A program made the position numbers and the translations under genes. The notes beneath the pieces are model-generated. The model worked only from the letters and a program-made list of their open reading frames with translations, had not been told where the DNA came from and searched no databases. A stretch of 36,399 bases of DNA, taken from an uncultured Candidatus Berkelbacteria bacterium. Its GTDB lineage: Bacteria; Patescibacteriota; UBA1384; CAJBMM01. Numbering within the stretch: the first letter of the stretch is position 1; the number at the start of each line of letters is the position of its first letter. Shown here piece after piece: positions 3,333 through 34,415 of the stretch. The stretch spans positions 1 to 36,399 of the forward strand of contig CAJBMM010000002.1 of the NCBI GenBank assembly GCA_903954185.1, written 5' to 3'.

Positions 3333-3438
3333 ATAATAAATAGTGATTTTCCATCCTTCGCTAAAAGATACAGACGGCACGCAATTTTCAATTACCAACT
3401 TTCAATAAATTAACAATTTTGCAATAATTCAAATTTAT

Positions 3439-3511
3439 GTCATTCCTGCGCAGGCAGGAATCCAGTCTGTTATAATTCTATTATGTAGATTCCCGCTTAC
3501 GCGGGAATGAC
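3439..3511. repeat. Inverted repeat, GTCATTCCTGC family, copy 2
   Basis: It starts GTCATTCCTGCGCAGGCAGG and ends TACGCGGGAATGAC. The right end carries a CCTGC to CCCGC variant with the matching GCAGG to GCGGG change, so its inner palindrome is kept. A short remnant of the same family is at 3774-3795. Confidence 0.8.
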
Positions 3512-3665
3512 AGTTAGTGTGGTTTGCCTGCTTACCACATTCTTCATGCTCCATGCTCCATGCTACAACCTCCAGCCTATTGCCTGCCCGCTGTAAGATT
3601 GCCGCATCGACTACTGCGTACGCTCCTCGCAATGACTAAAAACTAAAAACTAACAACTCTTACGA

Positions 3666-16317: not shown

Positions 16318-19300
16318 TTATTGATCGAATGTGTACTGTTCGCCCTCTTTAAGCTCACTTCCGTCTACTTTGTTGCTCTTGGGTAATGTTTCATCATCTT
16401 CGTTGCTATCTGCATCTGTTGCTTTACTTGCCATCACTCGATCAATTATGCTATTCGAACCACTATTTGTATTACTACTAATACTATCATCGATTCTGGG
16501 GCTTTCTGGGGGTTTTTGTGCTCCGGATGAGCTCAAAACTATACTCTTCTCCGCAATTTTATCATCGGAGGGGAGTGCCAAAGCGTGATTTTGCTCAAAT
16601 TGAGCTTGTTTAATAATGCTATGATCGGCTTTATCACTAACAGTTAATTCTTGTTTATTTTGATTATTATGAGAAATTGCGCCAACTGGGCCTAAACCTG
16701 GCTTCGGTTCAGAATTACCAGCATTTTTAGTAGAATAACTTCCTTGCGTGGTCTCCCCCAAGTTTGTCCCCTGCTGATTGTCAATTTTTTCTTTTATGCT
16801 CTCCCCTGCCTTATCTTTACTATCAAAGTTTTGCAAAACCAAATTGGTCTGGTCATCTTCGGATTCATATTTACTTTCTTTATTAGTGTCGGACAATATA
16901 TTATCAGACTGCCCTTCTACTTGAGAGTTATACCCACTAGCACTAGTCGCAGATTTTAAATGCTCTATCTTCTTAACAATAAACTTTTGCCTCTTCTTCT
17001 CTTCTTCTTCCATCACCTGCTCTAATGGATACCCTTCCCACCAGCGCACTCCCCCTTTTGTGTCTATCTCTTTATAGTAAATGCCTTCGACAATATTTTC
17101 GGGCTTAATTTTTATTGATGGTAATTCAATTCCTTTATCAGCAATTGCTGCCAAATTCATCGGTAGTGGATCTTTTCGCACTTCTCCAATTTTAGACCAT
17201 TGTTCAATATCATATTCAACTTCTACCCTAGGTCGCGAATACTTTTGTCGCGATAGATTGATAATTTCTTCGGTATAATCTTCATTTGCTTTTATTGGCG
17301 GTAAAGAGCTTGCAGAAAAAGCTGGGCTGGTTGTTCCGTCTATTGATAACTTTAGATAAATTTTATGAATATCTTGATTTACCATATCTGTTTCCGAAAA
17401 TACTGGTTCGTATTCTTTCACTAATGCCGATGCATCTGCAGCACCAACCCTAAAACTAATCATTGTTCCAACATTTCCAAACACGGCGTCTCGCACTTCT
17501 TCAGAAACCTGAGCAATATATTGATTTGCCATAGTTAAGCTTAAATGATATTTTCTGGCTTCGGATAATATGGTGGCAAAACTGCGCGTGGCAAAGTTTT
17601 GAAATTCGTCGACGTAGAAGTAACAATCGGTGCGCTTTTCTGCAGCAATATCGGCGCGACTCATTGCCGAAAGTTGAACCTTGGTAACTAACATCGCACC
17701 AAGCATCGCCGAATTATCCTCACCAATTTTGCCTCGTGATAAATTGATAAGTAAAATTTTACCCTCGTCCATTATTTTTCTAATATCGAAAGTCGATTTT
17801 TCTTGCGATACAATATTTCGAATGGTAGATGCGGCTAAAAACTGCCCGACTTTATTTAAAATTGGCGCAACTGCTTCTGAAGCAAACTTTTGATCCCAGC
17901 TGGCAAACTCATTCTCCCAAAAATCGCGTATAACAGGATCTTTTACTTCTTTTACTACCAAATCTCTAAGTTTTTTATCGGTTAACATTCTAGGGATTGA
18001 AAGCATAGTTGAACCAGGATAATCTAAAAGCGCTAAAACTGTATTCCGCAAAATATGCTCTAATCTTGGGCCCCATGAATTACTAAACATTTTTTCGAAT
18101 ATTCCTACAAATCCAGAAGCAATAATACCTTTTAGGTCATCATCAATTTTCTCGAGTAAATTAAACCCAACAGGGTTTTGTTTGTCTGAAGGATCAAATA
18201 CAATCACATCGTCTACCCGCTCTTTGGGCACACAGGCAATAATATGCTCAAATAACTCACCATGCGGATCGACTAAAATCACTCCCCTACCCTCACGGAT
18301 ATCGTCGATAATCATATTTTCCATCAAAGTACTTTTACCCGTGCCAGATTTACCAATAATATAAACGTGACGAGCGCGATCTTTTGTTGTAATGCCAAAA
18401 TCTTTTTCAACATTCCTAAAGTTTGTCTTGCCCAAGACAGTCATCATGTTTGCAGGCATAGATTCTGAAAGTGGTAAGTTGCTTGGCGGTTCACCTTTTT
18501 TAGCATTTGTCCAAACAATATTTGGTGTTTCGACGGTTTCGTTTGGTAAATGATAAAGCGAAGCCAATTCTTCTATGTTAAAAATTGCCGCAGGCTTTTT
18601 AAAATTGCGCGCTGCATAATCGTTCCAAAAGTCGTGATTATCGGCTAAAGATTGGGCGGCAACAAAACTATTTAAGTTAGTAGTATTAAATTGTTTAAAT
18701 GCCCCCACCACGCCGCTTGCCTTAGATTGAGCGGCATACAAATCTTTTCCAACAGACATAATACGAATGTTAGCTTCGTACCCTAACTTGGTTATCTTTT
18801 CTTCAATGCCCTTTAAGGCACTTTCTACTGGGCTAGAAAGTTTTGGAGCTTCTTTATCCTTCTTTTCGTCTTTTTTATCGCTAGGAGCACTTGATCCTGT
18901 TTGCACCGCTTCTTTTGCTGTATGATAAACAATTGTCGCAGCCTCTTTGGCAATTCCAGCCGGAATAGAAATTTGTTTTGGACTACCCTTTTTAATCTTT
19001 TCTACAAGCTCTATCCCCGCCTTTTGCCATTCGTCGCCTAAAGGACGCATCACTAATTGAATCCACACTTGTTCATTATCATTCAGTTTAGCCAATGCAG
19101 ATGTAATACCCGCCAACGGATCTACAGTAAAATTTAAAAATGTTTTAATCGGATAAACGTCTTCTTTTGTCATACGCAACTCAACGCCAACCATATGATC
19201 TGAATCTAAATCTACATCTCGGGTATAATCTTCTACTTCTTTAATTTCTACTGATGGATACTGAGCATATATTTGGCTTTCAACGTAATCTTTAAGATGC

Positions 19301-19605
19301 TCTGGTAAATACACGTAAAATCGAATGCTGTTACCCTTTGCCATAATCTCAAAACTAATATGCTCTTGAAACTCTGCGTTGGCTTGAAATATTCCGTGAA
19401 TAGACGCAAACATTTGCTCGGCGGCTAAAGGTGTTTTCTCATTTAATCTAGGCACTTGAATAGTAATAAGTACGTTATTACGCCCAGCTAGCCACGTAGT
19501 GTGACGAATGTTATGTTGGTTTTTTTCCCAAAAATTAAGCCACCTGGTTATTGCTAACCAAGCCAAAACAATTACAATTAATACTAAAAAGATGTATATA
19601 AACAT
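16318..19605 (-). CDS. Membrane-anchored VirD4/TraG-like (HerA-FtsK class) ATPase with a long disordered tail
   Basis: 1,095 residues. One N-terminal membrane helix (about 2-24) is followed by an alpha/beta region to about 400 with a charged linker (KKDEKKDKEAP near 240). The ATPase has Walker A G-K-S-G-T-G-K-S-T (about 417-425), Walker B-like I-L-V-D-P-H-G-E (about 443-450), and a second acidic motif Y-V-D-E-F-Q-N-F-A-T (about 665-674), the TraG/TraD-type D-E-F-Q-N. This class moves DNA or couples substrates to a membrane channel. The last 230 residues are low-complexity, rich in S, N, Q, D and E. It is a paralogue of the 21579 gene. A tentative extended -10 (TGC-TAATAT) lies 17 bases before the ATG. 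No relaxase is nearby, so a conjugative role is not shown. Confidence 0.9.
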   Translation of the reverse strand: MFIYIFLVLIVIVLAWLAITRWLNFWEKNQHNIRHTTWLAGRNNVLITIQVPRLNEKTPLAAEQMFASIHGIFQANAEFQEHISFEIMAKGNSIRFYVYLPEHLKDYVESQIYAQYPSVEIKEVEDYTRDVDLDSDHMVGVELRMTKEDVYPIKTFLNFTVDPLAGITSALAKLNDNEQVWIQLVMRPLGDEWQKAGIELVEKIKKGSPKQISIPAGIAKEAATIVYHTAKEAVQTGSSAPSDKKDEKKDKEAPKLSSPVESALKGIEEKITKLGYEANIRIMSVGKDLYAAQSKASGVVGAFKQFNTTNLNSFVAAQSLADNHDFWNDYAARNFKKPAAIFNIEELASLYHLPNETVETPNIVWTNAKKGEPPSNLPLSESMPANMMTVLGKTNFRNVEKDFGITTKDRARHVYIIGKSGTGKSTLMENMIIDDIREGRGVILVDPHGELFEHIIACVPKERVDDVIVFDPSDKQNPVGFNLLEKIDDDLKGIIASGFVGIFEKMFSNSWGPRLEHILRNTVLALLDYPGSTMLSIPRMLTDKKLRDLVVKEVKDPVIRDFWENEFASWDQKFASEAVAPILNKVGQFLAASTIRNIVSQEKSTFDIRKIMDEGKILLINLSRGKIGEDNSAMLGAMLVTKVQLSAMSRADIAAEKRTDCYFYVDEFQNFATRSFATILSEARKYHLSLTMANQYIAQVSEEVRDAVFGNVGTMISFRVGAADASALVKEYEPVFSETDMVNQDIHKIYLKLSIDGTTSPAFSASSLPPIKANEDYTEEIINLSRQKYSRPRVEVEYDIEQWSKIGEVRKDPLPMNLAAIADKGIELPSIKIKPENIVEGIYYKEIDTKGGVRWWEGYPLEQVMEEEEKKRQKFIVKKIEHLKSATSASGYNSQVEGQSDNILSDTNKESKYESEDDQTNLVLQNFDSKDKAGESIKEKIDNQQGTNLGETTQGSYSTKNAGNSEPKPGLGPVGAISHNNQNKQELTVSDKADHSIIKQAQFEQNHALALPSDDKIAEKSIVLSSSGAQKPPESPRIDDSISSNTNSGSNSIIDRVMASKATDADSNEDDETLPKSNKVDGSELKEGEQYTFDQ

Positions 19606-20092: not shown

Positions 20093-21229
20093 CTACCTTG
20101 CTTCAGTGGCTTTGAGTACAGCTTTTACTTCTTTTGTAACACTGCTTTTATCAATCTCGTTTAGTGAATATAGCTTTCGGCCAACCTTAATAAACTGAGG
20201 TTTAATTTGCAAATTAATAATAATGGTATTCTTTTTAACCTGTCTACTTTTTAGCACTTCTTCTACAATTTCATCGGTAGTCATTGGGCGTTTTGCCTTT
20301 TTTAGTACATCTTCTATTACCTCTTCAACGGTGCCTGGTGCATATCCCCACTGAGTAAGTGCATAAATTCCACGGCCAACCAGTACAAATCTATTATCGG
20401 CGATAAGCTCATTATGAACCGTTGGTTGTACAATCTTTTTGCCATCAAAGCTGCTTCCACCTATTCGCTTCGCAATTTCTGTAAAGTGAAGTGGTTTGCC
20501 AGATTCGTTTAAAATATAATAAATTTTGTCTCGAACATTTTTGGGGTTAACCGTTGGCCATGTTGACAAGCCATATTTGTGATCGGTAGTTTCGATGATA
20601 TCTTTTGATAAAGAAATAATGTGTTTCAAAAACGTTTGTGGAAACTTATGTAAATCTTCGCTGTTATCCCACAATAATTCAAATTCTACTACGCTTCCTG
20701 TTTCTTGAATTATTTCTAAAAGTTTTTGCAAAGACTGATCTATAGTGCTTTTACTAACAACTTTTAGCACCCAGCCAGCACGCATAGTTTTTGATTCTTT
20801 AATTTCGATTAAATCTTTAGTTAAACGTAAAAATAAGCGTAATGAATTAACATCTGCAGTACTTCTGTGCTCGGCTGGCAGTAATATAGTCACTAAACCA
20901 TTTTCTGAAATTACGCCACCCTCTTTATCTATACTAGAAATGACAACTTGAGTTTCTGAACGATATTTTTCGTGCAATTTGTCGGAAAGTTTATTCATTA
21001 CATCGCGTTCAATTTGTCTAATTCTTTCGCGCGAAAGATGAAATTTATCGCCAATAGAAGAAAGTGTTACTTTTTTATCTAACCCTAAACCAGCACGAGA
21101 TGATATAACTGTTCGTGCTTTTTCTTCTAATCCAGAAACTAAATCTCTCATTATCTCAGAAGGATTAAAGTTGGCTTTTATTTTTTCAGCATCGTGCTCA
21201 AGAATAGACTGTAGAAGTGAATTACTCAA
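20093..21229 (-). CDS. Sigma-70 region 4 protein with HARE-type winged-helix domains, likely transcription regulator
   Basis: 378 residues from a TTG at 21229. This start is chosen because AAAGGAG lies just upstream; the longer frame to 21286 would run into the promoter at 21272-21300. Residues about 50-85 read T-L-S-S-I-G-D-K-F-H-L-S-R-E-R-I-R-Q-I-E-R, the classic sigma-70 region 4 helix-turn-helix that reads -35 boxes. Region 2 (the -10 reader) is absent. About 225-290 (VRDKIYYILNESGKPLHFTEIAKRI ... LVGRGIYAL) and 300-360 (VEEVIEDVLKKAKRPMTTDEIVEEV ... VGRKLYSL) are tandem HARE-HTH repeats as in RNA polymerase delta. It may bind promoters or polymerase rather than act as a full sigma factor. 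It sits between the two ATPase genes with its own promoter. Confidence 0.82.
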   Translation of the reverse strand: MSNSLLQSILEHDAEKIKANFNPSEIMRDLVSGLEEKARTVISSRAGLGLDKKVTLSSIGDKFHLSRERIRQIERDVMNKLSDKLHEKYRSETQVVISSIDKEGGVISENGLVTILLPAEHRSTADVNSLRLFLRLTKDLIEIKESKTMRAGWVLKVVSKSTIDQSLQKLLEIIQETGSVVEFELLWDNSEDLHKFPQTFLKHIISLSKDIIETTDHKYGLSTWPTVNPKNVRDKIYYILNESGKPLHFTEIAKRIGGSSFDGKKIVQPTVHNELIADNRFVLVGRGIYALTQWGYAPGTVEEVIEDVLKKAKRPMTTDEIVEEVLKSRQVKKNTIIINLQIKPQFIKVGRKLYSLNEIDKSSVTKEVKAVLKATEAR

Positions 21230-21271
21230 GGCACTCCTTTCTTTATTACACCCCAAATTTATTACGTAATG

Positions 21272-21300
21272 ATTATACCATGTCAAGACAATTAAATCAA
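21272..21300 (-). promoter_or_regulatory. Strong promoter of the sigma-4/HARE gene
   Basis: On the minus strand TTGATT (21295-21300), a 17-base spacer and TATAAT (21272-21277), with a TG one base before the -10. The leader is about 35 bases and includes AAAGGAG before the TTG start. This is the best promoter match in the window. Confidence 0.8.
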
Positions 21301-21578: not shown

Positions 21579-24092
21579 TTAGCGTGCCGCAGGGGCAGAT
21601 TCGTTCAATGCACCAAGCTGCATTTCATCTACTCTAGCCCTATCTTGAATAAGCTGAGAAACAACTGTGGCATCTTTGCCATACTTTAAGCGTGAAAGTT
21701 GACGCACCATTTCACCCACTTCTTTAGAACCATTGGCGTCTTTAGGAATAGTTTCGCAGTTAAATGGCCTTTCAGCCCTATTATCAATAAGTAATTTAAT
21801 GTAGAAATTATATTTATCAATATTTTGTAAGTCATCTTCGGATAATGGTTGAAATTCATGAGCAAAAAACTCTGCATCTGCTGCACCCATTCTAAATGCC
21901 ACTAAAGACCCTGCGTTACCAACTACAGCGTTACGAATTGGCTCTGTTAGCTGCTCTACATACTGATTGGCAATGTTAAGCGCCAAACCATATTTTCTGG
22001 CTTCGGATAATATTGAGGCAATAGCATCAGTTGTAAAGTTCTGAAACTCATCGATGTATAAATAAAACGGTGTGCGTTCATTTTCTGGAATAGATGCCCT
22101 ACTCATAGCAGCCATATAAAGCTTACTTACCAAAATCATACCCAATAAATTACTATTTACTTCACCAATTTTGCCCTTAGAAAGGTTAACTAGCAAAATG
22201 CTCTTTTTATCCATCACCTCACGTAAGTCAAAAGCCGATTTTGGCTGGCCAATGATGTTACGCATCATGGTATTAGTTAAAAATCTGCCAAATTTAGAGG
22301 TAAAGTAATTTAACATTTCAGATTTATGAAAATCGGAAGTTTTAGCCATTTGCTGCTCCCAAAAACTACGCACCACTGGGTCTGTAACATTGGCCAACTC
22401 TTTTGTTTCAAAGTTCTTATCGGTAAAAAGCCTTGGAATTTCTATTAGGGTGCCGCCTTCTGGATCGGCCATTAATGTAAGTGCAGCATTGCGCATCCAA
22501 TGCTCAAACTGCGGACCAACAATACCTGTTTGATTTGGATCGAATAATTTATAAAATATTTGTACTGCTTCTTGCACTAAAAAGTCGCGTTGTTCTGGTG
22601 TTTTCCACTCTAATAAATTTAAGCCCATTGGCCTATCTACATCTGAAGGATCGAACAAAATCACATCTTCTAAGCGTTCTTTTGGAATGTGCTGCATAAG
22701 GTATTCAACTGAATCGCCATGCGGATCTAAATATGCGCAACCTAAACCCTCTTGAATATCTTGCAATATCATATTCTCTAAGAAAGTAGATTTTCCTACA
22801 CCAGTTTTTCCAGCTGCGTAAATATGACGTAATCTATCTGCAGGTTTAATATAAACTTTTTTATCTTCGCTCCTAAATTTAGATAATCCAATTAACCTGC
22901 CTTCGGTTGGCAAATTAGATGGTGGTGCAGTGCGTTTAGATTTTAGCCAATGAATGTTTGGCGTTTCTACATGCCTATTTGGAAAATGAAAGAGCGATGA
23001 TATTTCTTCAACGTTTAAAATCATCACTGGTCCGGGACTAAAAGTGCGTAAAATGTAATCTAAAACAAGGCGCGGTTTATTCTTATAATGCATTTCTTTA
23101 ATAGTATTGCCCATAGGATTTGTAAATTGTGAAAATGCACTGGCAATGCTATTTAAATGCATGGTTGCTTCTTCTTGAGTTGGCGATGTTACAAGCACCC
23201 TAATTTGCACATCAAAGCCCGATTTGCTCGATTTCATATTTAATAGCTTAAGTTGTTCTTGTTGCATTGGGGTAAGTTGACGCTGGTCTGCCTCGTCGCT
23301 AGGATTAGATTCGATTGTAGCTTTTTTAAATATCTTTACAAAACCCTGATAAAAGCGCTTAAAATCGTTATTGGCATGAGGGTTAAAACCACGCCCAGAT
23401 TGCAATTGCTTGGCATCGTAAGAAACTTGGCTACGCCAATAACCATCGTTTGGACGCACTAAATATTGAATAACAGCGGTAGATGTTTCGCCCATTTTAG
23501 AAAGTGAATTTGTAATCACACCTAGTGAATTTGTCTCTAGCTCGCGATAAGTTTTTATTGGCAAAACATAAGATTTTGTTAGTTTAAATTGATCTATCAC
23601 TATTTTGGCATCTTTATTATTTAAAACCGTGTAATCTTTAACTTCTTCAATCATGGCAGTGGGATACTGACCATGAATTTGCTTTTCGATCAAGCTAACC
23701 AAATGCCTAGAAACGCCAACGTAAAAGAATATTTCGTTGTTATGCGCTGCAATCTCAAACGTAATATGATCTTGCGGAATACCTTTTAATTTTCGCGAGT
23801 TATCATATAAATGCTGAAAACTAGCAAATAAAGGTTCTGCCACGGCAATAAGTTCTCTAAAATCTTTGCGCATTTGCTCTTCTGATACAGTAGTTTCTTT
23901 GGGCATGCTTACTTTTAGCATTACAAGCTCTAGAGAGCGCTGTAAGTTCATTTGCTCAGATTTATGTTTAATGTACCAAATGACGATGGTTATAAATGCC
24001 ACAAAAACAAAAAGCAATAATAGTAAAAGCAACATAGGCCATAAACTTTGGCTTTGCTCTACTGGCTGATTCGGAAAGTACCGCTCGTTCAT
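21579..24092 (-). CDS. Membrane-anchored VirD4/TraG-like ATPase, paralogue of the 16318 gene
   Basis: 837 residues. One membrane helix near the N-terminus (about 18-42), then an alpha/beta region homologous to the other ATPase (both read N-x-I-x-F-Y-V and then Q-I-H/Y-x-Q-Y-P near residues 110-140). Walker A is G-K-T-G-V-G-K-S-T (about 428-436), the next motif Y-L-D-P-H-G-D-S (about 455-462) and the later one Y-I-D-E-F-Q-N-F-T-T (about 680-689). It lacks the 230-residue low-complexity tail of its paralogue. Its ATG overlaps the TGA of the preceding 212-residue gene, so the two are co-translated. Likely a hexameric motor at the membrane; substrate (DNA or protein) unknown. Confidence 0.9.
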   Translation of the reverse strand: MNERYFPNQPVEQSQSLWPMLLLLLLLFVFVAFITIVIWYIKHKSEQMNLQRSLELVMLKVSMPKETTVSEEQMRKDFRELIAVAEPLFASFQHLYDNSRKLKGIPQDHITFEIAAHNNEIFFYVGVSRHLVSLIEKQIHGQYPTAMIEEVKDYTVLNNKDAKIVIDQFKLTKSYVLPIKTYRELETNSLGVITNSLSKMGETSTAVIQYLVRPNDGYWRSQVSYDAKQLQSGRGFNPHANNDFKRFYQGFVKIFKKATIESNPSDEADQRQLTPMQQEQLKLLNMKSSKSGFDVQIRVLVTSPTQEEATMHLNSIASAFSQFTNPMGNTIKEMHYKNKPRLVLDYILRTFSPGPVMILNVEEISSLFHFPNRHVETPNIHWLKSKRTAPPSNLPTEGRLIGLSKFRSEDKKVYIKPADRLRHIYAAGKTGVGKSTFLENMILQDIQEGLGCAYLDPHGDSVEYLMQHIPKERLEDVILFDPSDVDRPMGLNLLEWKTPEQRDFLVQEAVQIFYKLFDPNQTGIVGPQFEHWMRNAALTLMADPEGGTLIEIPRLFTDKNFETKELANVTDPVVRSFWEQQMAKTSDFHKSEMLNYFTSKFGRFLTNTMMRNIIGQPKSAFDLREVMDKKSILLVNLSKGKIGEVNSNLLGMILVSKLYMAAMSRASIPENERTPFYLYIDEFQNFTTDAIASILSEARKYGLALNIANQYVEQLTEPIRNAVVGNAGSLVAFRMGAADAEFFAHEFQPLSEDDLQNIDKYNFYIKLLIDNRAERPFNCETIPKDANGSKEVGEMVRQLSRLKYGKDATVVSQLIQDRARVDEMQLGALNESAPAAR

Positions 24093-24727
24093 TGTGCTGC
24101 TTGCCCCTTTTGCGCCTCTGCTCTTTGACTCATTATTTCTTTCTCTACTCCAATAGCTTTAGCAGGATCTATATTGCCATCTGGCCCGATAACCTTAGTC
24201 ACCAAATCTTTTACAGTTGACTCATTGTGTGCATTGGCTACTTTTGCTGCTCCTGCATCTTCTGCCGCCTCTGCACCAGCTGGAACAACATCGCCTCCTA
24301 CCATTTGTACTCCAGCAGCTAATGGCACTTCTGGTTGAGCTGGCGCGGGTTCTTGAGATGCGTTGGGTGATATAGGTGAAATAGGTGGTACAGGTGTTAC
24401 AGGTTCTGCAGGTTGTTCTGGTTGCTGTTTAATATCAGGCTCTAGGGGTGATATAGGTGTTATAGGTGGTATAGGTGGTATAGGCTCCGCAACTGCAACT
24501 TCTGCAGCCTGGCCTGCGCCGCCTGCATCCTGATCTATGGTCTCTGATCTTTGTTCTCTGTCCTGTCCCCTGCTGCCTGCTCCCTGCCCTACGCCATCTG
24601 CGTCCTGATCTATGATCTCTGATCTCTGTTCGCTGATCACTTCTTCCTGCTCGCTGCTCACGATGTCCTGTTCAATGTTCGCTGCTCGCTGATCACTGCT
24701 TATTGTTTTGTCCTGCGGATCGTCCAT
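24089..24727 (-). CDS. Low-complexity acidic, proline-rich protein, unknown
   Basis: 212 residues. The ATG at 24727 is chosen because AGGG lies just before it and a promoter at 24754-24782 would overlap the longer frame. Three parts: residues about 8-75 rich in Q, D, E, S, encoded by a period-7 tract; about 78-135 proline-rich (P-I-P-P-I-P-P-I-T-P-I-S-P), encoded by a period-9 repeat; and a C-terminal third with A, E, D and a short helix-prone end. No membrane helix remains with this start. It is probably a disordered linker or scaffold partner of the ATPase translated from the overlapping ATG. No family recognised. Confidence 0.65.
   Translation of the reverse strand: MDDPQDKTISSDQRAANIEQDIVSSEQEEVISEQRSEIIDQDADGVGQGAGSRGQDREQRSETIDQDAGGAGQAAEVAVAEPIPPIPPITPISPLEPDIKQQPEQPAEPVTPVPPISPISPNASQEPAPAQPEVPLAAGVQMVGGDVVPAGAEAAEDAGAAKVANAHNESTVKDLVTKVIGPDGNIDPAKAIGVEKEIMSQRAEAQKGQAAQ
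24361..24486. repeat. Period-9 coding repeat (proline-rich)
   Basis: On the plus strand nine-base units such as GGTGATATA, GGTGAAATA, GGTGGTACA, GGTGTTACA and, further on, GGTGATATA, GGTGTTATA, GGTGGTATA. Read on the minus strand they give the P-I/V-x-P pattern. Because nine is a multiple of three the period keeps one frame, unlike the next tract. Confidence 0.8.
24502..24701. repeat. Period-7 tract of about 28 units inside a coding region
   Basis: Plus-strand units run from CTGCAGC, CTGGCCT through ATCCTGA, TCTATGG, TCTCTGA, TCTTTGT, TCTCTGT and on to GCTGATC, ACTGCTT; at least 25 fit one phase (24527-24701). On the coding strand the units look like NNCAGNG. Seven is not a multiple of three, so the repeat is read in all three frames in turn, yet has no stop codon. 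Confidence 0.85.
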
Positions 24728-24753
24728 AAATTCCCTCACATTAATATAATATA

Positions 24754-24782
24754 ATGATACAATGCACCCGCCCCAAATGCAA
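24754..24782 (-). promoter_or_regulatory. Promoter for the 24727-21579 gene pair
   Basis: On the minus strand TTGCAT (24777-24782), a 17-base spacer and TATCAT (24754-24759), about 26 bases before the start codon. This splits the block into at least two transcripts. Confidence 0.55.
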
Positions 24783-24813
24783 AATATTTTATATATTGCC
24801 AAAAACAACACTT

Positions 24814-24975: not shown

Positions 24976-27300
24976 TTAGCCCAAATTGGTTAGTGGTGCC
25001 ACTTCTTGCCCCGTGCCTTCTCCATTTAAACGTACATGTATAGTTATGTTTGTTCCTTTTTCAATATCTGTTATCTCTAAGAAGGCGTGTGTTACATTAT
25101 GTGTTACTAACTCCGCTAAAGTTTTATGGTCGCCCGAGACAATAGACAACCGTGTATTAATACCGCCTATATTTATCTTTGCGCCCTGGCCATATCGGGG
25201 ATGGATTAAGAAGTATAAACCTTCAATAATTGTTGCTGCTCGCAGAGTAGTCTCAAAGTATCCATAAGGAATATTTTTTAAAATTAAACTTTCACCTTTT
25301 TGTGGATCTTTAAGTTCCCAACTAACATTTGGATCAGACAAGTCGACTTCAAACACCTTCTTACCATTAATTTCTCGCGCTTCAATATCTACGACTTGTG
25401 CATCAGTGTCTTTTGGTTTTGCAAGTTCATAAATTTTAACCTGTGGTAAAAGTAAATTATTATTGGTAGATTTATTTTTCAAGCCAATCGTTTCAACTGC
25501 AGCAATTGTACCGTCTAATTCTTGATCTCTGGTCTCAATTCTTTGAACCACATCACATTCTTCTGTGGGTTTATCACCAACTGTTGGCACAACAACTTCG
25601 CAATATCGCAGCAGTTCGTTCCGTAAAGCAATTTGTTTCTGGATGTAATTATTATATTCACGTGATGCCTGCTGATAACCTAATTCTCCTGCAAGGTAAG
25701 ATAAATCTGGAGAAATATCAAAGAGTAATTGGCTAGCCAACGTATTAGCTTCATCAAATGTTATCGTATCTGGACTTTCTGCAAATTTAGCAATTATTTG
25801 TTGAACTAAAATAAAATACTGACTAATTTCCGCAGATGGCGTTGAAGGCTTACTATACTCATCAGACGTTACTGTACTATCATAAACGTACAATCTACTG
25901 CTTGGTCTTGAGTAAGTATACCCACCGATTTGCATATAAGTTCCTGTCCCTGCATAGATTTTTCCATCTTCATCAGGATCTGGTGTTTTGACACGGCTGT
26001 CTTCAATTGACATATCGGGAATATCAGAAGGATCGTCCCCATTTTGCGGACTCACGATAATTACATATTTATCCAACAATTTAACAATTTGATTTCTACG
26101 ATCTGATATTTTACGCAATGCCTCGTTTGCCTCATAATCATTACAACCTTCTATGATCAAATCATTGTAACTTACGAGTGGTAGATAGACAGCTTCAACA
26201 CTCTCACCCTTATCTGAGAGTCGCTTAATTCGTTTATTTTCATCTGCAATGTTGAGTATATTTTCTACCTTATCAAACAGTGCCATAGCGTCGGCATATT
26301 TTTCAGATTCTTCATACATTTTGTGCTCGGGGTTGTTTTTAACTTCTGGCTCTGGTATATGATCTGTATGTACGTACCTTCTCACAAGTGCTTTTCTAGG
26401 CACATCTTCGCCAAACTGCCACCCCCATGAACGCACATTTACAACTTTACCCTGGTCTTCTTTTATTGTAGTAAGCACTTCAGACCCGTCTGCACTTGCA
26501 TCATGTAAATTTGGATCAAATTCATCTTTATTTTTAGGATAAATTTGCGCTACGCCATGTTGGGCTAGTTCCCTGCCCATCAGTTGGCTTAATTTTACCC
26601 ATTCCGAAAGCGCAGCCAAGGCTTCGTTTTGGTTGCTACTTAATTTCATTAAGCTTTCTATATTTGGATTGCTCATATCATCAAGGTAGGGTAAAATATG
26701 CCTGCGCTCTTTTGGAGGCATGTCTATTAGATTTGGCAATGCTTCAAGCAGCTCAGTTGCATGCCTAGAAATTGTTTTCAATCCTGGCATTGCTTGCATT
26801 TTTTCAATTTGACCGCGTATATCGGCACTTGTTGTTGCTTCGGCTTCTGTGCCAAGGTTTGCACCAGCTGCTGCCGTCGCAACGCCACTTATTTCTGCCG
26901 TTCCTTCTAAACCGGCACCACTTTCTCCAGAACCTGGGAGTGTTTTGCTTATAGCACCCAAAACCACATCTACGTATTTATCTCCACCCTCGCTAAGCAT
27001 TGCCCTAAGTACGGCAGGGTTTCCAATTGCAGCTTTAACTATAATTTTTGCATCTCCTGTTGTAACCGCAGCTTTAAATGCCGCAGCGCCTTCTGCCCAT
27101 GTTTGCGGATCTAAATTAGTTAATACAGGAGCGATTATTTTTCGGTCTTGGTCGCCTTTTAGATGTTTAAGAGCCTCACCCAAACTTTCAAAATCTGGGT
27201 CAGAATTACCGTCTGCATCAACTCGCGTGGCCGCAGTTAAAAATTGCTGTGCCCAAACCGCACCTTCTGCCTCTGGATTGTATTCTCTTCCTTCTGACAT
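24976..27300 (-). CDS. Large protein with a duplicated N-domain and a GrpE-like segment
   Basis: 774 residues, no membrane helix and no signal peptide. Residues 1-120 align without gaps to the first 120 of the 27334 gene (59 identical by hand count, with N-L-D-P-Q-T-W and L-R-A-M-L-S conserved). Residues about 200-300 read like GrpE, the Hsp70 nucleotide exchange factor: ILPYLDD, a helix ending R-E-L-A-Q-H-G-V-A-Q-I, then E-F-D-P-N-L-H-D-A-S (260-269) and a beta end (GKVVNVRSWGWQFGEDVPRKALVRRY). The rest (300-774), with helices and beta stretches, is not recognised. The ATG lacks a ribosome site; the 33-base gap to the gene before suggests coupling. No Hsp70 gene is in the window. The GrpE reading is mine and unverified. 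Confidence 0.75.
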   Translation of the reverse strand: MSEGREYNPEAEGAVWAQQFLTAATRVDADGNSDPDFESLGEALKHLKGDQDRKIIAPVLTNLDPQTWAEGAAAFKAAVTTGDAKIIVKAAIGNPAVLRAMLSEGGDKYVDVVLGAISKTLPGSGESGAGLEGTAEISGVATAAAGANLGTEAEATTSADIRGQIEKMQAMPGLKTISRHATELLEALPNLIDMPPKERRHILPYLDDMSNPNIESLMKLSSNQNEALAALSEWVKLSQLMGRELAQHGVAQIYPKNKDEFDPNLHDASADGSEVLTTIKEDQGKVVNVRSWGWQFGEDVPRKALVRRYVHTDHIPEPEVKNNPEHKMYEESEKYADAMALFDKVENILNIADENKRIKRLSDKGESVEAVYLPLVSYNDLIIEGCNDYEANEALRKISDRRNQIVKLLDKYVIIVSPQNGDDPSDIPDMSIEDSRVKTPDPDEDGKIYAGTGTYMQIGGYTYSRPSSRLYVYDSTVTSDEYSKPSTPSAEISQYFILVQQIIAKFAESPDTITFDEANTLASQLLFDISPDLSYLAGELGYQQASREYNNYIQKQIALRNELLRYCEVVVPTVGDKPTEECDVVQRIETRDQELDGTIAAVETIGLKNKSTNNNLLLPQVKIYELAKPKDTDAQVVDIEAREINGKKVFEVDLSDPNVSWELKDPQKGESLILKNIPYGYFETTLRAATIIEGLYFLIHPRYGQGAKINIGGINTRLSIVSGDHKTLAELVTHNVTHAFLEITDIEKGTNITIHVRLNGEGTGQEVAPLTNLG

Positions 27301-27333
27301 AATTTATAGTTTCATTACTAATACTTTTATTAA

Positions 27334-28212
27334 TTAACCCTGCGGTGGCGTACTTTCTGGTGCTTCGTATTTATATAATGTCACATATGGTCTATTAATA
27401 ACCTTGTTATTAAGTAAGATACCGTTAGATTTGGCAATTCCAACACATTTTCCGTCTAATACAGGGCTATCTGTTTTTTGCGTGAGATATTTCGAAGCAC
27501 GATGCAATTTTTCATCAAAGTCCGCACCATCAACTATGTTATATGATTTTGCACCTGCGTTCCTCAGCGCCAAAAAAACATTCCGAGTCAGTCTGCGAAG
27601 ATTCACCTCAGCAGCTGCCACATTCGGGTCATTAAGAATTCTATGCATGGGTGTTGTGTGAAATGTTAATAAATCTAATGCGCTTTCAGTTTCTTCAATA
27701 GAAGATTTTTCAAAATAGTTTAGCGGCGTTTCGTTAAGTTCAATTAAATCAGCTGCCCGAAGATCATATTGTATTTTAACTATCGCTTCGATTTCACTTT
27801 CGCTTAATTTTCCTACTAATTCGCCTTTTGCTTCATCTTCATTTGATTTTGTATTTTTATTAATAGCAGTAACCACCACTTTTACATATCGTTCACCATC
27901 ATCACTTAACATTGCCCGTAATATTGCAGCATTAGAAATAGCTGCTCTCAATATTTTATCTGGATCTCCAGATTTGACCGCTTCTTGAAAAGCAATTTTT
28001 CCCTCATCCCATGTTTGCGGGTCTAAATTCATTAATACACTAATTAAAAGTCGTCTTTGGCCCGGTTCCTTTAAATGTTTAATAGCTTCACCTAAAGCCT
28101 CCATATCTGGGGCAAGTTCGCCATCTACTTTACTATTTGCCGCTTCTATTGCCGCCTGTTGCCAATCTGTTTCTGCCTCTGGTTCTGGATTAAATTTACC
28201 GTCATCTACCAT
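27334..28212 (-). CDS. GrpE-like protein sharing its N-domain with the next gene
   Basis: 292 residues; its ATG overlaps the stop of the 1,923-residue gene by one base (TAATG). Residues 1-120 match the start of the 774-residue protein. Residues about 120-215 are helical and charged. Residues about 219-282 fit the GrpE beta-domain: A-G-A-K-S-Y-N-I, then D-F-D-E-K-L-H-R-A-S (231-240), then G-K-C-V-G-I-A-K-S-N-G-I-L-L-N-N-K-V-I-N-R-P, which matches GrpE's G-N-V-L-G-I-M-Q-K-G-Y-T-L-N-G-R-T-I-R position by position. In GrpE this end contacts the Hsp70 nucleotide domain. The N-domain is not the usual long GrpE coiled coil. Likely a specialised co-chaperone-like protein, duplicated next door. Confidence 0.75.
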   Translation of the reverse strand: MVDDGKFNPEPEAETDWQQAAIEAANSKVDGELAPDMEALGEAIKHLKEPGQRRLLISVLMNLDPQTWDEGKIAFQEAVKSGDPDKILRAAISNAAILRAMLSDDGERYVKVVVTAINKNTKSNEDEAKGELVGKLSESEIEAIVKIQYDLRAADLIELNETPLNYFEKSSIEETESALDLLTFHTTPMHRILNDPNVAAAEVNLRRLTRNVFLALRNAGAKSYNIVDGADFDEKLHRASKYLTQKTDSPVLDGKCVGIAKSNGILLNNKVINRPYVTLYKYEAPESTPPQG

Positions 28213-31200
28213 TAAAGCCCTCCTAATAAATCATCGACATTTGCACCTTTTGGCGCTGTAATTCTAACGTCTGCAGGCTTGGTTTCTTCAGCAGGTTTAA
28301 CCTCTGGCGCCTTCGCTGCGACCGGAGCTGCCGGCGCAGGGGCTGGTGCAGGTTCAACTGGGGATGTAGGAACCTCAACTGGCTGTGGGGCAGCTTCTGC
28401 GGCTACAGATTGCTCATCACCTAGGCTTAAGACATATTTGCTAAGCTCCTGGTACATGTCAGATAAGCCTAAGCCTTTCTGGACGAAACTAACTTGGCCT
28501 CCAAGAACTACTTTTGCATCGCTCGCTATTGAAGAAATATACATTGCTTCTAGCGCATGCTGAGTAATATTTTCGTTACTAACATCACCCTCTGTTACTA
28601 AACGTTTTAGAGCACCAATAACTAATAGTTGTTCTGCAGATAAATTGTTTGGATTATCGCCAGTCACCTGTACGCCTAAAATAACTAAATCCTCTATGTA
28701 TGTTTTTAGTTCTTTATTGCCTGTAGGGATAGCAATTTCATTAGCCCTATCCTCTACCTTTGCGGCTTCTTCTGGCGATGAAACTATGGGCACTTCCCCT
28801 GGAGCTGGAACCATGCCTGATTGAGCAAACCTAGCTGTTCTACCTTTCAAAGCATTACCAATAATAGCATCTAAATCTGCAGGTGGTGGTTCGACTGGTT
28901 CTTTTGCTTCTTGCTGTATTGGCGTTACTGGTGGCCATTCTTCACCGCTTATTTTTGGCGGTTGTTGAGCGGGCGGCGATTGCGGCGCTGGTGGAGCTGG
29001 GGAAACAGTTGGGGTTCCTGGGCGAGGAAAATCTGCACCTCTTACACTTGTTCCGTTAAATGCGATAACATGCTTATCGGGGTCAAAACTGCCATCTGGT
29101 GGAATAATGGTAATGAGCATTTGCTTGTCGTCGTTCACTTGAATTAGCTCACCATTATACTGTGATCGGTAAAGTTTTCCGTCAACTTGAGAATTTCTGT
29201 GGCCAATAAACATTTTGGCATTTGCTGGTAAGCCAAGTTCCGATTTTAAGCTAGCTGATAATCTTGCTATTTCAGCCATATCTGCATGAGATGCCGCAGC
29301 ATTGTCTGTCCACGTTAGATTAAGCTTAACAGCATCATCTTTTGCCCTAATTTTATCTATACTTGGCAATTCCCAAGCCTCACCGCTTTCTCCACCCGGA
29401 GCGGAGTGTTCAATCAAATAGTCACGGCCTGTAACAATATATGGTAGTTGACTTTCAAAATGACGATACGCATCTAAGAAATTAAATCCTTGCCCATATT
29501 GCTTCATCCATTCTCGTACTTTTCTCGATTCTCCACCAGGTTCTTTAACGTTTTTCGCAAAATCAAGCCCATCAACATCGTCATGATTCCCACGCAAAAA
29601 GTGGAAATTATTTGGAAACATGGTTTTTAATTCCATAACTATTGCCATGGTATTTAAGCCAGCTGCCATCTCTTTATTCATATCGTCGTTATCCCAGTTT
29701 TCACTACGTTCAGTATGCAAACCGTCACCAACACAAACTATGTTTAATCTGCCTTGCGCTAATAAATCTAGCACTGGCTCACCTTGATACTCACCAAGCA
29801 ATAAATTACCAATAAATTCTTTTCTAGCGTGTAAATCGGATACAACAATGGTTGGCACATCTTTACGAGCAAGCTCTACCACACCAGATTCTTTCTTTAG
29901 TACCTCTATAGCGGCATCGATAGATGCCATGTATTTTTCTTTTGGCTCTAATTTATCGGAATGCACCAACCGCTCAACTTCTGTTCGCAACTTAGCAACT
30001 TTTTCTTTTGCTTCCCCACTTTCGCCACCACCCAAAGCTTTTTCTGAACCATCTGGCCCATTAGGCTCTGAACCGTCCGACGCACCTGTATCATCACTTG
30101 GTGGCAACGTACCCCGAGAAGATATTTGGTCAAAAATTCTATTAGCCTCAGCGCCCGGCTCTCCACTTAGAGAATCTTCTGAAATTAAAAAGACAGTTCT
30201 ATCAATCGTAGATATACGTGATAAAGGAGCCACTACACAATTTGTAATACCCTGTGTTAATAAGACATCTATATATTGCTTTACTTCTCTTTCTAAATTC
30301 GATTTTCGCTCTTGCTCGCTATTTCCGAGGGCAAATGGCAACCCTATCTTAAATTGATATTTATCATCGGTTGAATCTATTTTACCGGATAAATAACCCG
30401 CTTTAATAGTTAAAAAGTTGTTACCATCAAATATTATTCCTTTGGGATGCAGACCAGTAATTGCGACTTTGTCTGATGGCTTTAAACCCATTAATTCAAC
30501 ATGCTGCGAATTTGTAACATCGACTGCAAAGTTATTCGGCTCATCTTCTTTTCTATTACCTTGCTCGTCATCTCCACCACCAATATTATCTGAATCTTCG
30601 TCTAATTGGTCATTCAAAACGATTTCGTTTACTTCGTAATTAGAGTCATCTCTATTCTTTTCATCTCTTGGCGAAATTACCTTGTACGAATATGTCTCAT
30701 CATCAGTGCCAAACGTACCATTGGTACTCAATTCAAGATGATATTTTGAAGTAGATTCATTCGCTCTAACAAGCCTTTGCACTTCCATTTTATTTGATGC
30801 TTTTGGATCAAATTTATATTCTTTACCCGCAATTGTAATTGAAGGCAACTTCCAATATCCACCCATTCTAGCTCGAATTGGACGGCCTAGTAAACCAATT
30901 TGACAGTATACATTCTCGCTTATGGGGTAATCATAAGAATCTCCCCCAATTTTGAACTCTTTTCTGCCATCAGCAAACATCATATTTACATTAGCTTGCG
31001 GCAACTCATCATTTTCTAGAAATTCCATTTCTGAATCGTATTCATCTTCTATTGCTTTAGAATCTGCTTGCGGGATTAGTTTGCAATATACTGCATCAAT
31101 TTTTAGCCCGTTACTGCGCCTAACTCCCCTATCATATTTAGCATCATCTGCAGATACTCCCGGAGGAGTTTCGGAAATTATTTGCACACCCATTGTTGGA

Positions 31201-33983
31201 TTATTTTCTAATGATTTGATTTCTTCTTTTGATAATTGGCCGTTTTTGCCACTACCCAATACCACAACTTCTACGTCGTTTATATAATGAGGTCTTAATT
31301 TTTTACCTAGCCCAACTACACCAGTTTTAGTTACATGTATATTCTTGTCATTTTTCATCACAATTTTTTGATTTGGGGCTAGTAGCTGGCTTGCCGTTCT
31401 TTCTTCTGGCTCGTAACGCCAGCAATTTTCATAACCGTTATTCCACATTTTGCCACCGCTTAAAAACAATGGTCTAACAGATTCCTCGGCAATTTCTGCA
31501 TCTCGTTCTTGCACTCTTTCTGCCTTTATTTCTGCGGGCGTTTTGGCGGGTGCTTCGGCTAAAACTAAATCTACTGCCACAATATCTGTGTTTGCCGATT
31601 CACCAACAAAGACTATCTTCATATAATAGTGAGCATTATCAAACTCGGTTTGTGGCATATTTGCCATTTTTTCAAGTTCTGCCTGTTGCTCTGGGCTTTC
31701 CATGTTTTCTTTGCCATTGCATAAATATCGGTTGCCAATTTTTACGCCAGCTGGTAAAGACCAAATAAACTTTCCTTGCCCATTATCTAATTGAATTGGA
31801 CGACCAATTTCTGTTGCAAGCATAGACCATTGCGTGCCAACAGTTGGCTCAGAAGGTTCTTTTAACTCTTTTACGTCTACACCTTTTTGCATGTTTTCTT
31901 GATTAACTGCCCCAACAACTGGTATGGTATCAAATTTATCCGCACCCAATGCATTAACTTTTGCTCCGGTATCTGCACTATTTAGTAACACATATTGTAC
32001 TGCACCGTTAGCTACTTCTACCGCTTTTATTGCAATTGGAACTGGCATAGGGGTTTCGTGAATTTCACGAAGCCTAGCTTGTTGTGCGGACGGATTTTGC
32101 AACGTTAACTGCTGACCATCTGCGCTGACAATTACAGGCATTGCATACTCACCACCCTGTTGCGTTTGCAATCTTACTGGAAGCACTCGCAAATTTAGTA
32201 GTTGCACATCTCCAACGTGTAATTCGGGTATAGTACCCGCTCTTGCCTCTGGTGGTGTTCCGCCTGGCTGAGATGGACCATTTTCAGGGGATGTTCCACC
32301 ACCACCGCTTGGGGCAGTACTATTTGGTCCAGGCGTATAGCTTTCGCCTCCGCCACCTCCACCACCGCTGCCAGAGCCACCGCCTAAACCGCTTCCGCCA
32401 CCGCTTGGTTGAGTTGATGATGATTTAAATTTTGGCATGCCAGAATCGGCTAAATTGCCACTTGGTAAAAGCCTGCGTCTATAAGATTCGTGATCGGTAG
32501 CATCGCGATTATATTGTTTAATTGTTTCGTTGTAATCTCCTACTATAGACGGAACTGCCATACCCATTCTTGCAGCTAAACCAAGTATTATTGGCGCAAA
32601 TGTATCTTTAGTGGCATTCATGGCTGCCCATCTAATTGCAGAGGCAACGCCTTCTTTCATCGCATGCCCACCCAACGGAGTACCGGGCGCAAACTGATGT
32701 TGCAACATTTCTGCAGCATCATTAAATCTGTAAGTTAAATTATGAGCAGATTCGTTTACAGAGTGTGCGGTTCCTTTGGCAAACTCTACCATGTGTTTAA
32801 TGCCATCACCATCTACATCCATAGCAACATGGCCTTTTTCTAATAATTCTTGAGTAATGCGAGCTTTTACCGTTAAAAAGTTTACTACTCCGCCAGTTAT
32901 TCCACCCGCAGCCGCTAAACACTCCTCTATTTTTCGCCATTTTTTCTTATGTTTTTCTAAAGCCAATACTTTTTCGCCATAAGTTTCTCCAGGAGCGTTT
33001 TCACTAGGCTGGTAAACTTCTGTTCCTTCTCCTAGTTCGGGACCATTTAACCCATGAGCATCTGCATCTCCAGGGCGCATAGGCTGATTAATTTCACCAT
33101 GCATATTGGCTGCTGTATAATATTCAGTTGCTCCATTTGCATTAGTTCTTGTTTTTACATTCACATTGTTTTGTTCATAAGTAGCGACAAAATTTACTAA
33201 ATCTTTTATGGCACGCTCTCTATTGGTATACCATTCTGTAATTCTTTCGCGCTCCTCGGCTGTTGGTGAGTCTACATCGGCAGGTTGTGGCGCCGCACCT
33301 AAACTGGGAATTCTATCTGCCAATTCACGCCCTTTTTGAAACATGCGTGTTCTAGCCACTAATAATTCGGCGCGTAATTTTCTTTCTTTGCCATTAGAGA
33401 ATTGAATACCTTCGGCAATACCACGCCCAACCGCAGAACCTACTAGCGAATAGCCAATACCTGCACCCCAAGCAACACCACCCGTTAAAACACCTGCAGC
33501 AATTACAGCGCCACCAGTTAATGCGGCCGTTGCAGCAGTTTTCCAACCAACCCTAGTCAATCTACGGCGTAGTTCGTTGCCCATATTGTATCTAATAACA
33601 GCTTCGTGACGTTGCGTGACATTTTGCCCATCTACATTGTTAGTTAAAGGCGGAGCCGGATCTACACAAACATCATTTTCGCCCTCCATCCAGCCTTTAA
33701 ACCGGCCAAACCACCCTTCTCCGTGCCTGTGATCTATTTTGGACTGAACTTCACGCTCCCAACCATCGCCGCGCACATGCTGAATAAGGCGCATTATTTC
33801 TTCTTCGCGCCTAAAATTACTTTCTCTATCTAGCGGCCGATGTGGTGTGTGTTCTTCTGTAGTTGTATGCGAGGTTGCATTGGGCAGCATGTGCCTCTGT
33901 GGAGCACTATTAATTCTAGTTGGGTGAATACCTTGAACACCGTCGATAGATTGAGTGACAGCTGGTCCTTCTGGAGTTGGCAT
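28212..33983 (-). CDS. Giant protein with membrane-type segments and a PPP-like phosphoesterase domain
   Basis: 1,923 residues. The ATG follows the stop of the preceding gene by one base and has GAGGAG upstream. Layout: polar start; glycine/alanine-rich hydrophobic stretch at about 147-185; further hydrophobic segments near 355-375 and 445-480; a glycine/serine-rich linker (about 520-575); a long mixed region to about 1,290; an acidic D/G/S linker; then a metallophosphoesterase at about 1,370-1,625 with S-D-L-H-A-R, V-G-D-G-L-H, R-G-N-H-D-D, E-H-S-A-P-G and I-G-H-R-N-S. These are the five metal-binding blocks of the PPP/calcineurin-like fold. A proline-rich stretch and a C-terminal region rich in A, P and E follow. 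It probably hydrolyses a phosphoester, protein or small molecule. No relative recognised outside the phosphoesterase. Confidence 0.85.
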   Translation of the reverse strand: MPTPEGPAVTQSIDGVQGIHPTRINSAPQRHMLPNATSHTTTEEHTPHRPLDRESNFRREEEIMRLIQHVRGDGWEREVQSKIDHRHGEGWFGRFKGWMEGENDVCVDPAPPLTNNVDGQNVTQRHEAVIRYNMGNELRRRLTRVGWKTAATAALTGGAVIAAGVLTGGVAWGAGIGYSLVGSAVGRGIAEGIQFSNGKERKLRAELLVARTRMFQKGRELADRIPSLGAAPQPADVDSPTAEERERITEWYTNRERAIKDLVNFVATYEQNNVNVKTRTNANGATEYYTAANMHGEINQPMRPGDADAHGLNGPELGEGTEVYQPSENAPGETYGEKVLALEKHKKKWRKIEECLAAAGGITGGVVNFLTVKARITQELLEKGHVAMDVDGDGIKHMVEFAKGTAHSVNESAHNLTYRFNDAAEMLQHQFAPGTPLGGHAMKEGVASAIRWAAMNATKDTFAPIILGLAARMGMAVPSIVGDYNETIKQYNRDATDHESYRRRLLPSGNLADSGMPKFKSSSTQPSGGGSGLGGGSGSGGGGGGGESYTPGPNSTAPSGGGGTSPENGPSQPGGTPPEARAGTIPELHVGDVQLLNLRVLPVRLQTQQGGEYAMPVIVSADGQQLTLQNPSAQQARLREIHETPMPVPIAIKAVEVANGAVQYVLLNSADTGAKVNALGADKFDTIPVVGAVNQENMQKGVDVKELKEPSEPTVGTQWSMLATEIGRPIQLDNGQGKFIWSLPAGVKIGNRYLCNGKENMESPEQQAELEKMANMPQTEFDNAHYYMKIVFVGESANTDIVAVDLVLAEAPAKTPAEIKAERVQERDAEIAEESVRPLFLSGGKMWNNGYENCWRYEPEERTASQLLAPNQKIVMKNDKNIHVTKTGVVGLGKKLRPHYINDVEVVVLGSGKNGQLSKEEIKSLENNPTMGVQIISETPPGVSADDAKYDRGVRRSNGLKIDAVYCKLIPQADSKAIEDEYDSEMEFLENDELPQANVNMMFADGRKEFKIGGDSYDYPISENVYCQIGLLGRPIRARMGGYWKLPSITIAGKEYKFDPKASNKMEVQRLVRANESTSKYHLELSTNGTFGTDDETYSYKVISPRDEKNRDDSNYEVNEIVLNDQLDEDSDNIGGGDDEQGNRKEDEPNNFAVDVTNSQHVELMGLKPSDKVAITGLHPKGIIFDGNNFLTIKAGYLSGKIDSTDDKYQFKIGLPFALGNSEQERKSNLEREVKQYIDVLLTQGITNCVVAPLSRISTIDRTVFLISEDSLSGEPGAEANRIFDQISSRGTLPPSDDTGASDGSEPNGPDGSEKALGGGESGEAKEKVAKLRTEVERLVHSDKLEPKEKYMASIDAAIEVLKKESGVVELARKDVPTIVVSDLHARKEFIGNLLLGEYQGEPVLDLLAQGRLNIVCVGDGLHTERSENWDNDDMNKEMAAGLNTMAIVMELKTMFPNNFHFLRGNHDDVDGLDFAKNVKEPGGESRKVREWMKQYGQGFNFLDAYRHFESQLPYIVTGRDYLIEHSAPGGESGEAWELPSIDKIRAKDDAVKLNLTWTDNAAASHADMAEIARLSASLKSELGLPANAKMFIGHRNSQVDGKLYRSQYNGELIQVNDDKQMLITIIPPDGSFDPDKHVIAFNGTSVRGADFPRPGTPTVSPAPPAPQSPPAQQPPKISGEEWPPVTPIQQEAKEPVEPPPADLDAIIGNALKGRTARFAQSGMVPAPGEVPIVSSPEEAAKVEDRANEIAIPTGNKELKTYIEDLVILGVQVTGDNPNNLSAEQLLVIGALKRLVTEGDVSNENITQHALEAMYISSIASDAKVVLGGQVSFVQKGLGLSDMYQELSKYVLSLGDEQSVAAEAAPQPVEVPTSPVEPAPAPAPAAPVAAKAPEVKPAEETKPADVRITAPKGANVDDLLGGL

Positions 33984-33984
33984 A

Positions 33985-34359
33985 CTACTCCTCTTCTTTT
34001 AATACATTTGTTAACGCCGCCATCTCCATTTTGTAGCTGATAGATTCCTCGGCAAATAATTTATCTAAATTAATTTCGTGTTCTGTTAAAAACTTGGCAT
34101 AAGCCTGTTTATCGCCAGATTCAACAATTTCTTTCCATTCATCTACTTGGTCATCGCTAATTAAATCATCTACCCTAGATATTACGCGGGTTTTAACGGT
34201 GGCCGTCATTTCGTCCATCATTTTTTGCTTGGTATCACTATCTGAATTTGAGAGTCCTAAAATTTCAAATATATCTTTATCAATCACTTCTTGTGCAGTG
34301 TATTTTTTAGCTGAATTATTTGCTGCATCGTTATTTTGAGTACTATTATCGTCTGCCAT
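33985..34359 (-). CDS. Small helical acidic protein (DUF5663-like)
   Basis: 124 residues. The ATG at 34359 follows AAGGAG at good spacing; an upstream ATA/ATT-rich extension to 34395 is discarded because a promoter lies there. After a polar N-terminus (S, N, D, T) the protein is helical: D-I-F-E-I-L-G-L, then KQKMMDEMTATVKTRVISRV, DQVDEWKEIVESGDKQAYAKFL and a final charged helix. The pattern resembles the small CPR family labelled DUF5663, recalled from memory and not checked. It is the first gene of the block and ends one base before the giant gene, so the two are almost surely co-translated. Confidence 0.7.
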   Translation of the reverse strand: MADDNSTQNNDAANNSAKKYTAQEVIDKDIFEILGLSNSDSDTKQKMMDEMTATVKTRVISRVDDLISDDQVDEWKEIVESGDKQAYAKFLTEHEINLDKLFAEESISYKMEMAALTNVLKEEE

Positions 34360-34387
34360 GCCTCTCCTTAATTTATTAGTTCTACCT

Positions 34388-34415
34388 ATTATCATTTTCT
34401 ACTAATTATAGTCAA
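34388..34415 (-). promoter_or_regulatory. Promoter of the minus-strand block
   Basis: On the minus strand TTGACT (34410-34415), a 16-base spacer and GATAAT (34388-34393), about 30 bases before the ATG. A TTGACA and a TATAAT also occur within these bases but at the wrong spacing for each other. Confidence 0.5.

Follow-up and report, generated by a model that had tools for sequence, protein, structure and literature searches.

GrpE ordinarily has one task, that of assisting DnaK. Most of its contacts with DnaK are made by the beta-domain, which inserts into the nucleotide cleft, and the stalk contributes to DnaK binding and dimerisation, and the BAG proteins of eukaryotes combine an Hsp70 exchange module with targeting domains of various kinds (PMC4753570). 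A second point of reference is the VirD4-like coupling ATPase, 5,713 homologues of which are reported from 2,918 Patescibacteria genomes, 148 of them near virB4, and which may have been exapted; the main text of that study mentions neither GrpE nor a phosphoesterase (PMC12102498). Our searches of the literature on GrpE-like and GrpE domains, and on GrpE in Patescibacteria, found nothing on proteins such as the two described here.

These two proteins (hereafter the twins) are encoded in the window, by which we mean the whole 36,399-nt stretch analysed, contig C2 of a 998-kb genome in 43 contigs that is 96.6% complete (Table 1). The small size of the genome, together with its DUF5663-like gene and VirD4-like ATPases, points to Patescibacteria/CPR. 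As an earlier sequence-only reading had noted, the twins share a locus with a phosphoesterase-bearing protein, ATPases and a small lead gene. P0004, P0003, P0002, P0001, P0005 and P0006 form a compact run in the same direction, in which P0004 and P0003 lie 1 base apart, P0003 and P0002 overlap by 1 base, P0002 and P0001 are separated by 33 bases, and P0005 and P0006 overlap. The start of P0005 is probably the ATG, which has GAGG upstream, and not the GTG at 24811, in which case the longer version's hydrophobic N-terminus would not be real. Between P0001 and P0005 (24813-24877) lies a 25-nt inverted repeat belonging to a dispersed palindromic family with 75 matching pieces genome-wide, including 3438-3512 and 277-311 of the window. 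The interval between the two VirD4-like ATPases encodes a protein with sigma-70 region 4 and HARE-HTH domains (20093-21286); similar sigma-like genes of relatives come after the ATPase.

Table 1. Features of the twin locus, with positions in the window
Feature	Position	Strand	Description
P0001, 774-aa protein	24976..27300	-	New N-domain, GrpE head R1, apparently degraded R2 and R3, C-terminal part of no recognised kind
P0001 N-terminal domain, residues 1-125	26926..27300	-	46% identity to counterpart in the 292-aa protein
R1, GrpE head, P0001 residues 202-312	26365..26697	-	FDPNLHDA motif; Pfam PF01025 31.7 bits
R2, probable degraded GrpE-head-like repeat, P0001 residues 390-481	25858..26133	-	Shuffle test and model match
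R3, third repeat, weakly supported, P0001 residues 548-635	25396..25659	-	Shuffle tests
P0002, 292-aa protein	27334..28212	-	N-domain as in P0001 (27838-28212) and one degraded GrpE head
P0002 GrpE-head-like region, residues 205-284	27361..27600	-	FDEKLHRAS
P0003, 1923-aa protein	28212..33983	-	N-part of a family found across the class, containing hydrophobic stretches; middle variable; phosphoesterase domain
P0003 calcineurin-type phosphoesterase domain	29184..29855	-	SDLH, GDGLH, GNHD, EH and GH motifs
P0004, 136-aa DUF5663-like lead gene	33985..34395	-	Pfam 21.6 bits, cut-off 23.7
P0005, acidic, proline-rich protein	24089..24811	-	Start more likely ATG at 24727
P0006, VirD4/TraG-like ATPase	21579..24092	-	One N-terminal membrane segment
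P0008, second VirD4/TraG-like ATPase	16318..19605	-	Coupling-protein model match

Both ORFs lie where the sequence-only reading had placed them, and the GrpE motif that it had recognised is present once in each protein: in a six-frame translation of the 36.4-kb window, F-D-x-x-L-H-x-A-S occurs exactly twice, once per twin, and the shorter F-D-x-x-L-H-x-A was found elsewhere solely in GrpE ORFs (429 ORFs of the compared loci). The proposed GrpE kinship of the 774-aa protein is borne out by profile comparisons. The Pfam GrpE model (PF01025) matched residues 202-306 above its curated cut-off of 25.8 bits (E 1.5e-7), with 32.7 bits in the whole-genome scan, and several NCBIfam GrpE models touched the protein below their whole-protein cut-offs. 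Using hhalign with a profile of the genome's own GrpE and those of class relatives (1 and 20 sequences, 21 in all), we obtained for residues 200-320 a probability of 95.5% and a score of 52.3, the maximum over 40 shuffles being 21.0. R1 matches GrpE profile positions 67-161 of 165, which cover the bundle helix and beta-wing, and its head motifs are nearly complete, with FDP-x-LH-x-A, the G-[YW] position (GW) and the R-x-A-x-V end (R-K-A-L-V) all kept; the departures are HDA for the GrpE HEA and, in the last strand, R-K instead of R-P. Unlike GrpE, the protein has no N-terminal coiled-coil stalk (profile positions 1-66 are unmatched and an orphan N-domain stands instead), carries extra, apparently degraded heads, and runs to 774 aa as compared to about 150-250. 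Since AlphaFold models were of low confidence (mean pLDDT 40.5 for R1 and 33.9 for the full-length protein, modelled with two sequences) and Foldseek on the R1 model returned noise, the fold was predicted from homology, according to which R1 would form a helix bundle with beta-wing and bind DnaK.

GrpE-head repeats are not confined to the twins. A 429-aa protein of another class member (G013, L005:3154-4443, minus strand; Pfam GrpE 32.8 bits) has two of them, though it differs in having no shared N-domain and in lying between uvrB- and uvrA-like genes and not in a VirD4-like cluster. From R1, the 292-aa head and the two G013 heads we built a four-head model that included no canonical GrpE. In the class, its top matches were R1, both G013 heads and the 292-aa head, followed almost only by GrpE ORFs; across 380 phylum genomes it gave matches in 78 at E up to 0.01, where, among the matches listed, all except this genome's two seed ORFs were 140-310-aa, GrpE-sized ORFs, and 5 of 5 sampled were GrpE by Pfam (78-136 bits). 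Because the seeds were picked after Pfam hits, this reverse search was not blind and tests for consistency only. Its return of GrpE ORFs across the phylum, together with the Pfam match beyond the curated cut-off and the hhalign score far above the shuffle maximum, makes it very improbable that the similarity is fortuitous or due to convergence of a short motif, even though phmmer of R1 directly against the PDB did not retrieve GrpE, the profile of all four heads also matched the unrelated THO1, and no confident structure was predicted.

With what seem to be two further degraded copies of the head, the 774-aa protein looks like a tandem array of three head-like units. Residues 201-320 aligned best with residues 393-481, a result equalled by 1 of 5000 shuffles (no fine boundaries were preset), and residues 321-500, compared with the remainder of the protein, aligned at 548-601, that is R2 with R3 (3 of 5000 shuffles as good). 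R3 also resembled the 292-aa head (65 of 20000 shuffles as good), and the four-head model found R2 as well, ranking it (16.1 bits, E 0.011) over the genome's canonical GrpE (14.0 bits). Given that hhalign of R2 and R3 to the canonical GrpE profile gave no support, the repeat claim is based on the R1-R2 and R2-R3 similarities and on the four-head model. Both R2 and R3 keep the conserved head motifs only in part; the low-confidence AlphaFold model places helix-then-strand blocks at both, to which we gave little weight. Taken together, these comparisons leave R2 fairly well supported as a degraded GrpE-head repeat, and R3 weakly supported as a third head-like one.

Duplication and fusion to a new N-domain, as originally proposed, were borne out by the N-terminal 130 residues of the twins (46% identity, E 5e-33), from whose similarity the two are certainly paralogous. 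The GrpE-like character ascribed to the 292-aa protein held in part: a decayed head scored above all shuffles, but it fell below the Pfam threshold, and the Pfam scan of this protein gave no GrpE hit. Residues 210-275 reached 11-13 bits with class-GrpE models, whereas shuffles reached at most about 3-5 bits, and hhalign with the GrpE profile gave a probability of 27.6 and a score of 26.0 (shuffle maximum 14.9). This head has HRA in place of HEA and retains the conserved motifs only partly, and its direct alignment with R1 was not significant (1572 of 20000 shuffles as good). No transmembrane segments were found in either twin, both of which are apparently soluble. Relatives of the 774-aa protein or its N-domain were absent from 60 further genomes of the class and phylum, from two scans of genome contigs and from viral contigs, and a search of 380 phylum genomes gave marginal matches of 15-17 bits only; the only other genome compared from the same family (77% complete) had no match to the twins.

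A dedicated Hsp70-type module, as first suggested for the locus, is in line with the twins' GrpE homology, yet the rest of the genome speaks against it. A canonical grpE and dnaK, which the sequence-only reading had proposed to look for elsewhere, are present in a normal grpE-dnaK-dnaJ group on contig C37, away from the window. The gene of the 774-aa protein thus differs from grpE also in lying apart from dnaK and in occurring in addition to an ordinary grpE. The one full-length Hsp70 of this 96.6% complete genome (841.9 bits) adjoins that grpE, the remaining HSP70-profile matches being short and partial (16-47 bits, in 338-424-aa frames), and a Pfam scan of the window cluster's proteins found neither an Hsp70 nor a J-domain protein. 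Because the genome has one real Hsp70 and its normal group lies elsewhere, the suggestion is unsupported, and we judge it highly improbable that the twins belong to a dedicated Hsp70-type machine. A separate pair of such a dedicated Hsp70/GrpE type was seen in another genome (G022, L006:6092-8937), in which a 114-aa GrpE-like protein (26.5 bits) adjoins an 830-aa Hsp70 homologue.

The phosphoesterase domain of P0003 scored 21.2 bits against calcineurin-like PF00149 (cut-off 21.5) and 21.8 bits against the PHROG 246 phosphatase, and its D-x-H, GD, GNHD, H and GH metal-binding motifs are all there, in order. The domain looks complete; sampled relatives of the membrane-protein family of P0003 are without such a Pfam domain. 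Members of the family of the P0003 N-part adjoin DUF5663-like genes in G033, G009 and G030, with weaker cases in G003, G041 and G048. P0006 and P0008, like the VirD4-like coupling ATPases of Patescibacteria (PMC12102498), match TrwB/TraG-type coupling-protein models, and the P0006 type is matched in 54 of the 55 class genomes, mostly by two adjacent genes. Two more VirD4-like ATPases are encoded in the genome (G000:C12:1021-2676 and G000:C39:31698-33347). Anti-phage defence was considered, as the mad8 model picked up both P0006 and P0008 (59-61 bits), and was rejected, the hits being taken as general VirD4/HerA ATPase similarity. Unlike type IV secretion loci, the window had no VirB4, VirB3/PrgI, VirB6, relaxase or other type IV secretion part among the proteins examined. 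Since most VirD4-like ATPases of Patescibacteria are encoded apart from virB4, perhaps having been exapted (PMC12102498), the twin locus may, but need not, belong to a secretion machine.

When co-occurrence was followed across relatives, as the earlier reading had advised, the ATPase cluster was kept and the twins were absent. G048 and G023 have the gene order seen here (DUF5663-like, large membrane protein, acidic protein, ATPase), and in G011, G031, G037, G045 and G050 the small protein comes after the large one; the G023 protein in the matching position (L066:2510-6103) contains FIDHHGP, which by eye recalls DHH phosphoesterases, and has no Pfam hit. Because none of the relatives' clusters examined holds a GrpE-head gene, the twins are a lineage-specific addition to a conserved cluster. 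Their cluster position matches that of the acidic, disordered protein which relatives encode directly upstream of the VirD4-like ATPase, and some helical-hairpin resemblance can be seen by eye, as would be expected if the twins were a diverged, lineage-specific form of that protein that gained GrpE heads later. This derivation is improbable, as the position is already occupied by P0005 and a model of the relatives' N-termini did not score clearly above shuffles on either twin; homology of the N-domain to those disordered proteins was, on the same result, unsupported.

The explanation that we put forward, at a probability of roughly 0.4, is by analogy with BAG proteins: the twins would be a targeted GrpE-derived adaptor that recruits the housekeeping DnaK to a membrane/ATPase complex. 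The proposed plan resembles that of BAG-domain proteins in combining an Hsp70-exchange module with unrelated domains for targeted recruitment; fold and sequence are unrelated, so the likeness is one of analogy only. The heads presumably derive from a duplicated GrpE that lost its long N-terminal coiled-coil part. The N-domain would anchor the twins to the complex, where R1 would engage the nucleotide-binding domain of the single DnaK and, by opening it, cause client release on the spot, while the degraded heads might supply a scaffold or binding surface. One working head among worn repeats is proposed because R1, in which most of the conserved head positions survive, could still engage DnaK, whereas R2, R3 and the 292-aa head have probably decayed too far to do so. 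Contact of the twins with the ATPase is suggested by gene order alone. The single normal DnaK, as an available partner, speaks for the adaptor; the missing stalk, the motif departures and the low-confidence structure models speak against it.

A rival of equal standing, and just as tentative, is a pure scaffold role, in which GrpE-derived heads would be reused as building blocks of a tandem scaffold in a VirD4-like/membrane complex, with no DnaK contact. This would account for the strong degradation of 3 of the 4 heads and for a cluster without a second Hsp70 or J-domain gene, and the two-head protein of G013 likewise sits away from dnaK; it accords less well with R1, which retains most canonical conserved positions that a mere spacer would not need. 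The more specific form of the adaptor reading, a BAG counterpart of an ultra-small bacterium in which stalkless tandem GrpE heads plus a targeting domain would provide a VirD4-like membrane complex with its own local exchange factor for DnaK, we regard as doubtful. With a single genome so far known to encode the twins, conservation is no guide to their function.

If the adaptor reading is true, a multi-head GrpE that has acquired a new domain and is encoded alongside secretion-type ATPases would represent a use of the fold undescribed in the literature searched, and would imply that the targeting of Hsp70 exchange to a particular site is within the reach of bacteria as well. The twins also bear on the role of the near-universal VirD4-like loci in these small-genome bacteria.
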